Assembly: GCA_950295325.1 (NCBI GenBank)
Contig: OX485808.1
Coordinates: 16,514,527 to 16,578,526 of the forward strand
Origin: Polytrichum commune
Lineage: Eukaryota; Streptophyta; Polytrichopsida; Polytrichales; Polytrichaceae
Direction of reading: 5' to 3'
Length of the DNA stretch: 64,000 nt
Below are positions 15,515 through 52,069 of this stretch, piece after piece. The notes beneath the pieces were generated by a model. That model was not told the origin of the DNA and searched no databases. It was given only the letters and a program-made list of their open reading frames with translations. Position numbers and translations under genes: made by a program. How positions within the stretch are numbered: position 1 is the first letter of the stretch; every line of letters begins with the position of its first letter.

Positions 15515-18500
15515 TCATCTGAAGAATCGTTCGTGCCGCTCCCCTCCGGTGGCAGGGTGGAATTTATATGCGTTGGTGAGATACTCGTGCCATGTGAAGG
15601 GTCGATACACCTGTGGCCTCTCCTCGGTGATGAGTTCTTGAGGAGCTTCCACCGTAGCACTCAAGGGTGGGTTTAAGAAACAAGCGAGGGACAGACGCTT
15701 CGAGAATCCATTCACAGCTGCCCTGTGCAAAACGCTCTTGTATCTTGTGTTGCTCAGAACCTGCAAAAGCAAAACAGCCACGATAGGAGTTAGTACACCT
15801 GAAATCCCTAAATTCCAGATGTTAAACCTCCAACAAGATGATTCTGGACTGGAGGATGATGATGATGATGATGAAGTCTCAATAGTTTCGAAAACAAAAC
15901 AATAGGACGATAGGATTATTTTATGTGAGAAAGTATGCAACTGGCCGGTAGACAAATCCAGCTTGCTAATTTGTTCGAGCTATCCTCAACATAACTCTCA
16001 ACATGACTTCTTTGTTTTGCATACATGATGAATGATTTTTTTCCACTTGTTATGATGGTGCATGCTTGGAGGTAGTAGTGTGGAGGTTTGAATGAAGAAG
16101 AACATTCTTACATGGGTTCATTGAGGGTCAAACTCATATTGGCCTGCCAAAAAGGTCCTAATCAAACCTCAAGAGATAGAGTTTGCCCGTCATTCAAATA
16201 CAAACACTACCACAGACCTCCAACACCATCACAAAAGAGGAAGAAATTATTGATATTGTATGCAAAAAACAACCAATGGAAAATCAGAGGGGACGAACTC
16301 CCGACGGAAAGTCCTATTGAGTCAAAGGAGCCTCTTATAATAGTAAGGCAGGTTACTCAAGAGGATTTAATTTTTGGTTTGTGCTTAGATCAGGAGCCCA
16401 GACATGCAAGCTAACCCGTGAAACTGAGGTGCGGCGAATTGGATGAGAAAAATTGCATGTTCAAAGCGATGAGGAACTTACGCATTCGGAGAATGCAAAG
16501 CTATTAACCTGAAAAAAGGTGTTACGGGTGAATTGGAATGAGAGAGAGAGGGAGAGAGGGAGGTTTGATGAAACTAGGGTTGATTGTTTTCTTGTTGTTG
16601 TTGTTGTACCTGGAAGAGATCACCGATGTTGACGACGAAGCAGTCCGGGCGGGGTTTGACGGTGATCCACTTGTCGTCAATGTGGACCTGCAGGCCAGCG
16701 ATTTGGTCCTGGTGCAAAATGGTGAGCAAGTGCGGGTCGGTGTGTGCTCGTAGCCCAATGGCCAGGTCCGGTTGCGGGCACGGTGGGTACAAGTTGAACC
16801 GCATTGACATCATCCTCTCTTGCTCCACGTAATGGTTGAACGTCGATGGCTCCAACCCCAAGCCTTCCGTGAGCAGCTCTAGTAGCTCCCGTGCCAGCTT
16901 CTCTATCTCCGCCATGTACTCCTCCACCGTGGAACTGCACAGGCACACATTACACGGCGCACTCCCACTCAGCAACTACTTAATGTGCGATGGCTTTCCC
17001 AAATGTGCCGAAATCGAATTTGCACCGTCCCACAACATAACCCCCAACCACCATCCCCGAGCTCCAAGATGCACCATGAATTCTAAGATGCCCAAATTTG
17101 CTCAAACTCGCACACAATAACAGAATCACCACCACCACTACCGCCACCACACCCGAACTCTGAAATGTAGCATGAATTCCAAAGATGCCAAAAACTGCTC
17201 AAACATGCACTCAACACAATCGCACCCGCCACCATCACCGCCACTACCAAACCTGAACTCAGAAATGCACCATGTATTCCAAGATGCCAAACAAGTGCTC
17301 AAACTCCCACACAACAACAACAACATCAATAACACACCCGAACTCAGAAACATGGCATCAATTCCAAGATGTCCAAAATTGCGCAAACTTCTAAACAACA
17401 ACATCACCACCACCACCACACCCGATCTCAGAAATGTACCCTATATTCCAAGATGCCAAACAATTGCTCAAACTTGCACCCAATACAATCGCACCAAACA
17501 ACATCACCACCATCACCACCGCACCCGCACTCAGAAATGCACTATGAATTCCATAATGCCAACAATTGCTCAAACTCCAAGATGTCCAAATTTGTGCAAA
17601 ACTTGCACCCAACAACATCACCACCACCACCAGACCCAAACTCAGAAATGTACCCTGAATCCCAAGATGCCAAACAATTGCTCAAACTTGCACCCAATAC
17701 AACCGCATCCAACAAAGTCACCACCACACTCGAACTCAGAAGCACAATGAATGCCGAGATGTGGAAAACGGCTCCAAACTGCTCAAAGGTTGCGGCACGG
17801 TTTCGGCACGGTTTCGGCTGCAAGAAGGGTTAACCACCCGAAGTGAGACAAGTGGATGTTTTGCTGTTTTTGGTTGCTTGGGGAGGGGGGAAAGGGCGGG
17901 GGGAAGGGAGAGGATGGGGTACCTGAATTTGGTAGGATCGCCTTCGGCAAAAAGCTTCCCGGAGAAGTCCCGGATGTTGGAAACAGGGTGGAGTTGCATG
18001 TGGAAGCTTTCAGCCCAGTGCATGACGGTTTGGTTAACCCAAGTATTGGCACCGTACCCAAAGGAGGTTCCAGGAGGGCGGTGGACTCGCTCCTTCACAT
18101 CCAGAGGGAGTTCGAACATCTTGTGTGCTTCTGCTTCGCACCGCTCGATCAACCGTCGGTCCACCCCATGGTTCACCACCTGGAAGAAGCCGAACTTCTC
18201 ACACGCCTCTGCGATGGACGCCACCAGCTTGCGGCGTGCTTCCACAGGCTCCGAGCTGGAGCTTAACACCGACATGTCGATGATGGGAATTTGGGTGCCG
18301 GGACTTCGAAGGAGATGCTGGTCATCATCATCATCATCATCATCATTTAAACCCACGTTCATGTCCAACACTGGCCGCTGATCCTCCGCTTCGATGAACA
18401 TGGGTGGCAGCTGCTGCGAGCCTTGCAGCAACGCAGACAGTAACCCCGCATTCCGCAGGGTTGTGTTGGCATTCGCAAGCACCGCGGCCAGGTCGGCCGT

Positions 18501-18551
18501 ATTGTGCAAATTAGGAGATGATGATGATGATGTCATTGGATGTGCCGCCAT
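15515..18551 (-). CDS. Gibberellin-oxidase-like 2-oxoglutarate/Fe(II) dioxygenase, 3 exons, 399 aa
   Basis: Exons are 18551-17923, 16934-16610 and 15760-15515. Introns of 988 and 849 bp have GT..AG ends and keep the frame (629 + 325 + 246 nt). The start is the first ATG of the exon, and a C-terminal stop closes it at 15515. Order: a low-complexity N-terminus with a Ser run and eight Asp (residues 70-77), a DIOX_N domain (about 86-190, IPIIDMSVL and FGFFQVVNHGVD), then the 2OG-Fe(II) domain. Iron ligands are H274, D276 (AHTDP) and H330; R340 and S342 (RLS) bind 2-oxoglutarate; NLYPPCPQPD is at 257-266. These enzymes oxidise small substrates in the cytosol. LTILHQDQIAGLQV, VNIGDLF and the C-terminal FTWHEYL resemble GA3-, GA20- and GA2-oxidases, so a gibberellin or related substrate is likely, but the exact class cannot be fixed. 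All catalytic residues are present and it appears intact. Confidence 0.88.
17060..17760. repeat. Intronic minisatellite, about 7 units of 83-112 bp
   Basis: Inside the first intron of the dioxygenase gene, an irregular tandem array repeats GAATTCCAAGATGCCAAA, TGCTCAAACTTGCACCCAA, then a CAC/CAA-rich stretch, then CGAACTCAGAAATG. Anchors fall near 17077, 17173, 17272, 17359, 17442, 17545, 17657 and 17750. Frames within it code only Asn/His/Thr/Pro-rich runs and are not taken as genes. Confidence 0.88.
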
Positions 18552-21858: not shown

Positions 21859-22337
21859 CAATGAAACGGGGGAGAACCCACTGCTAGTTACAGACAACCA
21901 GTGATTGAGGAGATTTTTGGGCATAATCGGTTGAGATCCTAGTGTTTGCAAGTCCAACCAGTTACAACTTACATGTTGACATCCTTTGGTTTTCCTTTAT
22001 TAAATTGGGGTATATTCTACAAATTCCTCTAAAATGATCGGTAATTTTCATGCAGTCTTGAACTTCAACCGGTTGTTTCTCAAACTCAACCGGTTCATCT
22101 GTAACTAACTGCCGGTTCTCCCCGACCATAGCAGAGAACCCATGGTTATTGAGTTTGAGAAATAACCGGTTGAAGTTCGAGGCTTCAGGAAATCACCCAT
22201 CATTTAAAAGGGAATCTATGAAATATTCCTCGAAAATTTTAGTGAAGAAAACCCCAAACATCACAACCTATAACCAGTTACACTTGCAAACACGAGGATC
22301 TTGACTTAATGATGTCCAAACATCTCGCCGGAGACTG
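21859..22337. mobile_element. hAT-like MITE invaded by an inverted copy of itself
   Basis: The host copy (plus orientation) occupies 21859-21898 and 22132-22337. A second copy in minus orientation fills 21899-22131 (233 bp), with ends CAGTGATTGAGGAGAT and GGTTCTCCCCGACCATAG. The octamers CAGACAAC (21891-21898) and CAGAGAAC (22132-22139) flank the insert and match at 7 of 8 positions, as expected for a hAT target duplication inside the host copy. Internal AACCGGTT motifs are shared by both. Confidence 0.8.
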
Positions 22338-33174: not shown

Positions 33175-33804
33175 GTGTTCAAGATTGAAGTCTTCCATGC
33201 CCTTCAAACACGATCTAGCCCTTCAAAATACACCTCTCTCAAAACATCCCTTCAAAACGCAACCCCAAATTGAAAATGAAGACGTCACTTGAAGTCCTCA
33301 ATATAATTTGCCCACCACAGGAACCAACAAGCGTAGGGCATTACCACTACAAGAATTGTAGTTAGATGGTTGATTTCTTAAATTTTTCACATTGTACAAG
33401 AAGCATGTACCATATAATTCATGCACAAGTTTAATACAAGTTTAATATTTCATTTCTATATTCTTAGATTGACGTCTTGGAAGCAAGTACCATATAATTC
33501 ATGCACAAGTATTATATGAGTTTGGTATTTCATTTCTATATTCTTAGATTGACGTCTTGGAAGCATGTACCATATAATTCCTGGACAAGTTTAATATGAG
33601 TTTTGTATTTCATTTCTATATTCTTAGACTGACATCTTGGAAGCATGTACCATATAATTCCTGGACAAGATTAATATGAGTTTTGTATTTCATTTCCATA
33701 TTCTTAGATTGACGTCTTGGACTTGAACCAACCCTTCAACTGGAGGGCTCAGATTTGAGAGCCCTTCAAAATGAAACTCATACGAGGGCTTCAATCTTGA
33801 ACAC
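33175..33804. mobile_element. 630-bp TIR element with an internal 80-bp minisatellite
   Basis: GTGTTCAAGATTGAAGTC at the left is the inverse of GGCTTCAATCTTGAACAC at the right (one mismatch in 18). Subterminal blocks CCCTTCAAA recur inverted or direct near both ends. It holds four tandem 80-bp units (33401-33720). G tracts (33162-33175 and 33815-33831) lie just outside both ends in the same orientation. No transposase frame. The superfamily is unknown. Confidence 0.7.
33401..33720. repeat. 80-bp tandem repeat, exactly 4 units
   Basis: Units start at 33401, 33481, 33561 and 33641 and read AAGCATGTACCATATAATTC ... TATTTCATTTCTATATTCTT AGATTGACGTCTTGG. All are exactly 80 bp and differ by a few substitutions only. 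The unit has no open frame of note. Confidence 0.95.
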
Positions 33805-47139: not shown

Positions 47140-47978
47140 ATGATTATGTTGCAAATGGACCGCTTGAATTTGAGGGATCACTGGTTGATACCCCAGCCAC
47201 ACCGGCCATGCGTGGGCGAGCCAGCCAGCCGATGGCCCTGGCCAGGGAGGCAATGAGCTAGGCTAGGCCGACTCGGCGTGGCAGGGCACCAACTAGCCCT
47301 CCAACTAAGGTAAGGGTGGCAATTTCCGTGCGGGTCCTAAAGTCGACCCCTATGGTCGGAAGCACATATCTAGGTGCTTTTACCTGGGTTTACAAAAGCA
47401 CCTATCAAGGTGCTTTTACCGTTCACAGCGCTGCCAACATTTCATTGGCTGCCAGCGGTCGGTTTTAGAAATCCACCCTGTGGATATACCACGTACCCTA
47501 TGTGCGAGTGTTGGTCACTCTACAAGGTTTCCTTTAAAAATTTGTAGGAAATCATAAACATGTTGGAAAATTTTGATTTTTTCATAGTTGCTCTTGCACC
47601 AGCTTTGCGGAGCGCTCAAAATTTATAAAAAAAAATAGTTTCAACATCCCAACTAGGCACATCTGAAATTTGGACGGAAATTGGCACCCCCACCTTACAG
47701 CTTGGATGGGGCTATGAGTGGGATTTAGGATCCCCGCTCGGTTGATAAATGTGGTGCAGTTTAGAAGAACACTATTATCGTTTTCAAATCATCCATGATG
47801 AGGCTCGAGACTTTAAAAAAAATTACTGATCATTTGGAAGGAACTTATAGAATGTACCTCAAATTACGAAAGAAATTCCGAACAATGTGAACATGGAACC
47901 GGTTGGACTTGGAAACACTAGGATGTCGTTGAAGACCGATTATTATTGTGCCCAAAAATCTCCTCTGAGAGACAGTGG
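47140..47978 (+). mobile_element. hAT-like MITE interrupted by about 600 bp
   Basis: The left piece (about 47147-47190, TTGAGGGATCACTGGTTGA) and right piece (about 47787-47978, GAGACTTTAAAAAAAATTAC, GGAACCGGTTGGACTTGG, GCCCAAAAATCTCCTCTGAG) belong to one family copy. The insert contains a GC-rich stretch (about 47195-47300) and the 388-bp TA-flanked element. The left TIR is lost. Confidence 0.55.
47308..47695. mobile_element. TA-flanked TIR element, 388 bp, copy 2
   Basis: Ends AGGTAAGGGTGGCAATTTCC and AAATTGGCACCCCCACCT, with TA on both sides. Nearly identical to 35481-35865, with roughly 16 differences counted by eye. Confidence 0.82.
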
Positions 47979-48118
47979 ACCAGTTTTTCACCTGCACAGA
48001 CAGACAACTCTGGCCCTGCAGGCTCACTGGACCGAGCTCCGAGTCTTTATTGAGGAGACAAGCCTGCCAGCTTCAGTCAGAGCCTCAAGTATTTCGATCT
48101 CAATCTCAGTCCTCGTGA

Positions 48119-48547
48119 CAGTGTCTGGAGAGATTTTTGGGCATAATCGGTCAAAATCCGAGTGTTTTCCAACTCCATCCGGTTACATGTTGTTTGCGAT
48201 CTTTCAGGTTTTCTTCATACATTCAAAGTATATTCCATAGATTCCTCTAACACGATCGGTGTTTTCCTGAAGTCTTGAACTCAACTCGTTCGTTTGTAAC
48301 TACACTAGTTTTGTCTAATTAGTGTGGGTTACCATTTGGAGTTACGTGTTGCTATAAATTTTTACTGGCATTCTTGTTTTTACCGACTAAATTATGTCAT
48401 ATTCTTCAGTGTGTAGGGTGACTACTTGAGTTATTTGGGTAAAAATAATACTCTCAATAAAATGTTATTATAGCGATGTGTGACTCCAAATGGTAACCCA
48501 CACTAATTAGACAAAACAATGTAGCGGTTGGTTCTCTCCGTTCTTTG
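48119..48547 (-). mobile_element. hAT-like MITE carrying a mariner-like MITE
   Basis: Starts CAGTGTCTGGAGAGATTTTT and ends GGTTCTCTCCGTTCTTTG. Contains GGGCATAATCGGTCAAAATC and CTAACACGATCGGTG. The 219-bp mariner-like element lies at 48303-48521, between TGTAAC and GCGGTTGG. Confidence 0.72.
48303..48521. mobile_element. Mariner/Stowaway-like MITE, 219 bp, TA target
   Basis: Ends CACTAGTTTTGTCTAATTAG and CTAATTAGACAAAACAATG, flanked by TA (48301-48302, 48522-48523). TIRs extend about 40 bp to CCATTTGGAGT / ACTCCAAATGG. It is divergent in its tips from the copy at 63652, though placed at the same host position. Confidence 0.82.
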
Positions 48548-51493: not shown

Positions 51494-51501
51494 GTATGTA
51501 T

Positions 51502-51940
51502 CAGTGCTCGGGAAGGAAGTTTTTGGAGCATAGTCCTATGATCGGGGAGAACCGGCAGTTGGGTACAGATGAACCGGTCGAGTTTGAGAAATAAATGGTT
51601 GAAGTTCAAGACTTCAGGAGAATTACCCATCATTTTAGAGGAGTCTATAGAAGAATATACCCCGATTTAATAAAGGAAAACCGGAGGATGTCAACATGTA
51701 ACCGGTTGGACTTGCAAACACTTGGATCTCAACCGATTATGCCCAAAAATCTCCCCAATCACTGGCATAGTTGGTCAAGATCCGAGTGATTCTAAATCCA
51801 GCCGGTTACATGTTGACATCTTCCGGTTTTGCTTTCATTCATGTTAGGTATATTCTTCTATAGATTCCTCTGAAATGATCGGTTATTCTCAAACTCAACC
51901 GGTTCATCTGTACCTAACTGCTGGTTCTTCCCAGACACAT
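51502..51940. mobile_element. hAT-like MITE invaded by an inverted copy of itself
   Basis: The host (minus orientation) is 51502-51535 plus 51765-51940, starting CAGTGCTCGGGAAGGAAG. The insert is 51536-51764 (229 bp, plus orientation), with ends CTATGATCGGGGAGA and TCTCCCCAATCACTG. Octamers GCATAGTC (51528-51535) and GCATAGTT (51765-51772) flank the insert. The host is itself flanked by GTATGTAT and GTATGTGT. Both pairs match at 7 of 8, giving two successive hAT-type insertions. Confidence 0.85.
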
Positions 51941-52069
51941 GTATGTGTATATGTGCCCTATAGTGGACACTTTTAGCTCCACAAACAATTTTGACAGTGG
52001 ATTGAATGAGTGTTTGGTTCACATGGCCAGCGATTGCGATGAATTACACACATTAGGGTTATTCGCAAA

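Follow-up and report, generated by a model that had tools for sequence, protein, structure and literature searches.

A self-nested, inverted copy of an abundant, putatively hAT-type miniature element family in Polytrichum commune

Within a stretch of 64,000 nucleotides of Polytrichum commune DNA (the window, part of contig C6 in an assembly of 408 Mb), a short repeat is present twice at positions 51502-51940, one copy inside the other and in opposite orientation. The arrangement raises the question of how it arose, in which order the two copies arrived, and whether the composite is anything other than an ordinary member of its family. A preliminary description had proposed a hAT-like miniature element inserted into its own kind, with readable 8-bp duplications around both insert and host. 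The present analysis confirmed that the self-nesting is real and that the order of insertion is readable; many copies of this abundant hAT-type MITE family are self-nested, and the locus is an ordinary case of a kind already known.

The inserted copy occupies 51536-51764, exactly as first described, with its element orientation on the minus strand. It is full length (229 bp) and aligns to the family consensus with 216 identities, 13 mismatches and no gaps. The host lies on the plus strand in two pieces. The left piece, 51502-51535, corresponds to consensus positions 1-30 and ends with the first octamer, as read from comparison of the excised host with the insert and the consensus. The right piece, 51773-51940, covers positions 31-229 but lacks 32 bp near 51885/51886, as read from the excised-host alignment and from terminal-repeat matches.

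The expected octamers (all unstranded) were located at both levels. The insert is flanked by GCATAGTC (51528-51535) and GCATAGTT (51765-51772), and the host by GTATGTAT (51494-51501) and GTATGTGT (51941-51948), each pair being identical at 7 of 8 positions and the outermost octamers being unlike the inner ones. Since the host pair lies within a TG/TA-rich tract of low complexity, its 7/8 match is weaker evidence than that of the insert pair. The claim of a host copy is carried by the alignment of its ends to the family more than by its octamers. The octamer at the insertion point is host sequence (consensus positions 23-30, GCATAATC) and not an element end. Sampled solo copies carry octamers of their own, different from these, and the duplications are not part of the consensus ends.

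When the insert and one octamer were removed, the host pieces rejoined at the octamer into a 202-bp copy that could be aligned over its full length to the reverse complement of the insert. Aligned to the consensus, this host has 167 identical positions, 30 mismatches and 37 gap columns, a single deletion accounting for 32 of the latter. Excision thus restores collinearity with the family, as expected of a MITE nested in its own family, except that strict collinearity is broken by the 32-bp deletion and small indels. As read from the alignment, two imperfect direct repeats of the consensus, CGGTAATTT and CGGTTATTT, lie to either side of the deletion, which probably originated between them. The order of the two insertions follows from the nesting itself, because one copy sits within the other, and the mismatch counts (30 for the host, 13 for the insert) agree with the host being the older, in a comparison that is tilted towards the insert by consensus rows picked for likeness to it.

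An initial genome search returned at least 47 matches (40 scored among 6,097 candidates). The 229-bp consensus, CAGTGATCGGGGAGA...TCTCCCCGATCATAG, was built from 42 rows selected by their similarity to the insert, with the nested locus counted twice. Its ends form terminal inverted repeats, mismatched just at positions 2-3 from the end, and identical 8-bp flanks are present in 28 of the 42 rows (the nested locus being there twice). With one mismatch at most, the left 21 bp of the family matched the genome 1,721 times and a reversed-pattern control not once, so the family match is not due to chance.

For sampling, the 100 listed places with an exact left-end match, all of them on contig C1, were taken together with 230 bp of flanking sequence to the left and right. 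Full-length copies accounted for 86 of these, and 79 of the 86 have an 8-bp duplication with at most two mismatches (a shift of the right end by up to 3 bp was tolerated). The remainder consists of 14 copies that are not full length and seven without a duplication within two mismatches; among the seven is L051, a direct case with the right-hand host fragment alone and a duplication at five mismatches. Of the 79 sampled duplications, 46 carry T at position 2 and 47 carry A at position 7, and so they follow the nTnnnnAn preference of hAT elements, a rule reported for the 8-bp duplications of Hermes (PMC2803484). The hAT-like class first proposed is borne out by these duplications and this preference. 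With a length of 229 bp, high copy number and defined ends, the family has the properties of a MITE, and it is, as judged from its sequence features, a non-autonomous one of hAT type.

Two sampled copies have a history of their own. At positions 418-680 of L085 (G000:C1:31917460-31918148), consensus positions of about 163-190 are repeated at least eight more times at 29-bp spacing, a likely minisatellite seeded inside a MITE copy. At positions 231-689 of L065 (G000:C1:12508758-12509446), near-whole copies follow each other head to tail at a spacing of about 216-220 bp, with shortened left ends at the joints, apparently a MITE turning into a tandem repeat.

The hAT dimerisation domain gave at least 150 genome matches at E <= 0.001. 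In seven long-frame hAT loci among these, searched for paired ends and an exact 8-bp duplication, no autonomous element with the ends of the family was found. One candidate, L164, has a 59-bp left-end fragment upstream of a transposase match; it was rejected as the autonomous partner and taken as a MITE remnant, since the interior of the fragment faces away from the gene. When 13 left ends that depart early from the element sequence (L059, L074 and L119 among them) were compared all against all, they did not share an interior outside the family.

The best explanation of the locus, to which we assign a probability of about 0.93, is that a hAT-type MITE inserted in the ordinary way, and inverted, into an older member of its family. 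Directly observed were the element ends, the 8-bp duplications, the collinearity after excision and the nTnnnnAn-like preference. The younger copy would have entered an octamer of the host copy by ordinary cut-and-paste transposition, with a hAT transposase encoded elsewhere in this genome mobilising it in trans. Self-nesting would come about mainly through copies clustering in the same insertion-permissive regions and offering acceptable target octamers, and no dedicated self-targeting mechanism would be needed.

How frequent self-nesting is was assessed in the 79 sampled copies with duplications, a copy being called nested when its flanks, once rejoined, gave a consensus match that spans the insertion point. 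Eight of the 79 (10.1%) are self-nested, five in inverted orientation (L054, L060, L068, L130 and L138) and three in direct orientation (L053, L080 and L114). Inverted self-nesting therefore recurs in the family, although L060 and L130 were counted on spans of only 35 bp (E 0.002) and 51 bp (E 1.4e-5), respectively. The tandem array L065 is within the 79 and was not scored as nested. A search with the junction pattern, giving only two exact matches, was too strict for counting nesting.

The window itself holds a second self-nested insert, at 21899-22131 on the plus strand and inverted relative to its host, which spans approximately 21870-22330 on the minus strand (insert included) and corresponds to consensus positions 8-221. 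This insertion lies at host consensus positions 192-199, is flanked by CAGACAAC/CAGAGAAC, and the rejoined flanks match the family with E 5e-32. Elsewhere in the window, two diverged family copies of opposite orientation lie about 155 bp apart at 47819-48285. A four-copy tandem array with an 80-bp unit and 92% matches was seen at 33400-33721, and the region 17048-17729, a degenerate array with units of 84-103 bp, adjoins a minus-strand open frame (17736-18551) whose product matches DIOX_N, the N-terminal 2-oxoglutarate dioxygenase domain, with E 3.8e-24.

Could the family instead seek out its own copies, with a preference for the inverted orientation? We consider this unlikely. The nested cases picked from matches to the composite query were all inverted, as are both window cases, and the nested fraction of 8/79 is about 20-fold above the density of the family in 20 random stretches (195 of 40,000 bases, 0.5%). 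An inverted-orientation bias was nevertheless rejected, as the composite query selects inverted pairs and the unselected sample gave five inverted and three direct cases. Local density also speaks against targeting: the family covers 1,499 of 31,950 bases (4.7%) beside the 71 non-nested sampled copies, about half the nested fraction, 2,116 of 64,000 bases (3.3%) in the whole window, and 272 of 19,113 bases in the outer flanks of seven earlier loci. The binomial probability of the nested fraction is 0.0046 at a density of 3.3% and 0.044 at 5%. Around the 79 insertion points coverage is about 6-13% over +/-220 bp, and at 150-200 bp away 5-8 of 79 points are covered by the family, compared with eight at the insertion point itself (nested hosts contribute to both figures). 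Because family density is high near copies and in the window, local clustering explains much of the nesting rate, and a mild preference for self, given 10.1% against a local 4.7%, is possible.

Where self-insertions fall within their hosts was examined by ranking the octamers within each host with a target matrix, for which the duplications of the 71 non-nested copies were used. The nested sites rank high as targets, with a mean fractional rank of 0.109 (ten cases including both window cases, with the host alignments of L060 and L130 on the wrong fragment), and none of 200,000 uniform draws was as low. Three of the eight resolved sites rank first or second, and the rest 27 to 48 of 179 to 229. 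Within its host, the octamer used by the insert at 51536-51764 is a middling target (36 of 187); in the second window case the rank is 46 of 214. The usual target preference thus helps to explain the sites of self-insertion, less so for the 51502-51940 locus. Nested sites with an assigned start in the sample (six of the eight) begin at element positions 32, 54, 62, 68, 115 and 146, and those of the two window cases at 23 and 192. A single hot spot near positions 14-40, suggested by the composite hits, was discarded in view of this scatter; it appeared because the composite query favoured junctions resembling its own.

Because the nesting is inverted, the composite has hairpin potential, and the long inverted repeat anticipated in the preliminary description is present as three arm pairs, 79-91% complementary, within 51544-51932 (unstranded), the hairpin itself being a predicted fold. 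The sequence 51494-51948 is predicted to fold at -264 kcal/mol (z -25.7, 0/100 shuffles as low), as expected for a foldback of two inverted copies. For the insert alone z was -1.43 and 16 of 200 shuffles reached an equally low value, and five solo copies with flanks of similar length gave -113 to -131 kcal/mol. Values for the inverted nested loci L138, L068 and L054 were -162 to -223 kcal/mol and for the second window case -183 kcal/mol; L130 and L060, of which shorter spans were folded, gave -83 and -98 kcal/mol, and the three direct nested loci -97 to -122 kcal/mol. If transcribed, the inverted repeat can, according to the predicted fold, form a long hairpin.

That the composite is a selected hairpin locus, i.e. 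a proto-microRNA or small-RNA source kept through hairpin processing, is nevertheless very improbable. Its predicted fold is far stronger than those of the solo copies, and juxtaposed inverted copies of transposable elements are described in PMC3086885 as a source of plant microRNA hairpins. On the other hand, the two arms match exactly over 19 nt at most, no Rfam family reached the gathering score within the 64-kb window, and five open reading frames tested between 47.9 and 51.5 kb gave no Pfam match. Moreover, as L138, L068, L054 and the second window case also fold strongly, nothing singles out 51502-51940 as a hairpin. It is likewise doubtful, if a little less so, that some 100 fold-back loci of this one family, a number extrapolated from one contig to about 1,700 left-end-intact copies, form a graded proto-hairpin series, legible in its insertion order, that jointly triggers silencing of the family.

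Least credible is an inverted duplication or rearrangement of a single copy into a fold-back dimer with no second-copy insertion, since, even though the two copies abut in inverted orientation and comparable abutting inverted pairs occur elsewhere (e.g. L031, L036 and L037), the insert has its full length, both of its ends and, where the host is interrupted, an 8-bp duplication, the host resumes on both sides and its two pieces rejoin at the octamer, the copies have diverged unequally from the consensus (13 versus 30 mismatches), and the outer octamers differ from the inner ones.

Ordinary insertion of one MITE into an older relative makes the locus a clean example of transposition order read from nested duplications; as a single locus, 51502-51940 leaves existing knowledge unchanged. 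The family, with both orientations of nesting, would serve well for asking whether small RNAs begin to be made after inverted nesting, the direct-nested and solo copies being matched controls.

A literature search in which all terms were jointly required returned nothing on hAT MITEs inserted in their own family with 8-bp duplications. The single features have close counterparts. The 8-bp duplications and the nTnnnnAn rule are shared with Hermes (PMC2803484), whereas the MITE described here, at 229 bp, is too short for a transposase. As in the rice microRNA loci derived from transposable elements (PMC3086885), two opposite copies of a short element give a long foldback; the rice loci come with small-RNA evidence, whereas the hairpin at 51502-51940 is a predicted fold. 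According to PMC3695323, which cites Jiang and Wessler 2001, MITEs are commonly nested within their own family in maize and rice, and there, too, a MITE lies in a member of its own family and the order is read from target-site duplications. The carrot families of that source are Stowaway-like with TA duplications, whereas the Polytrichum commune family is of putative hAT type with duplications of 8 bp.
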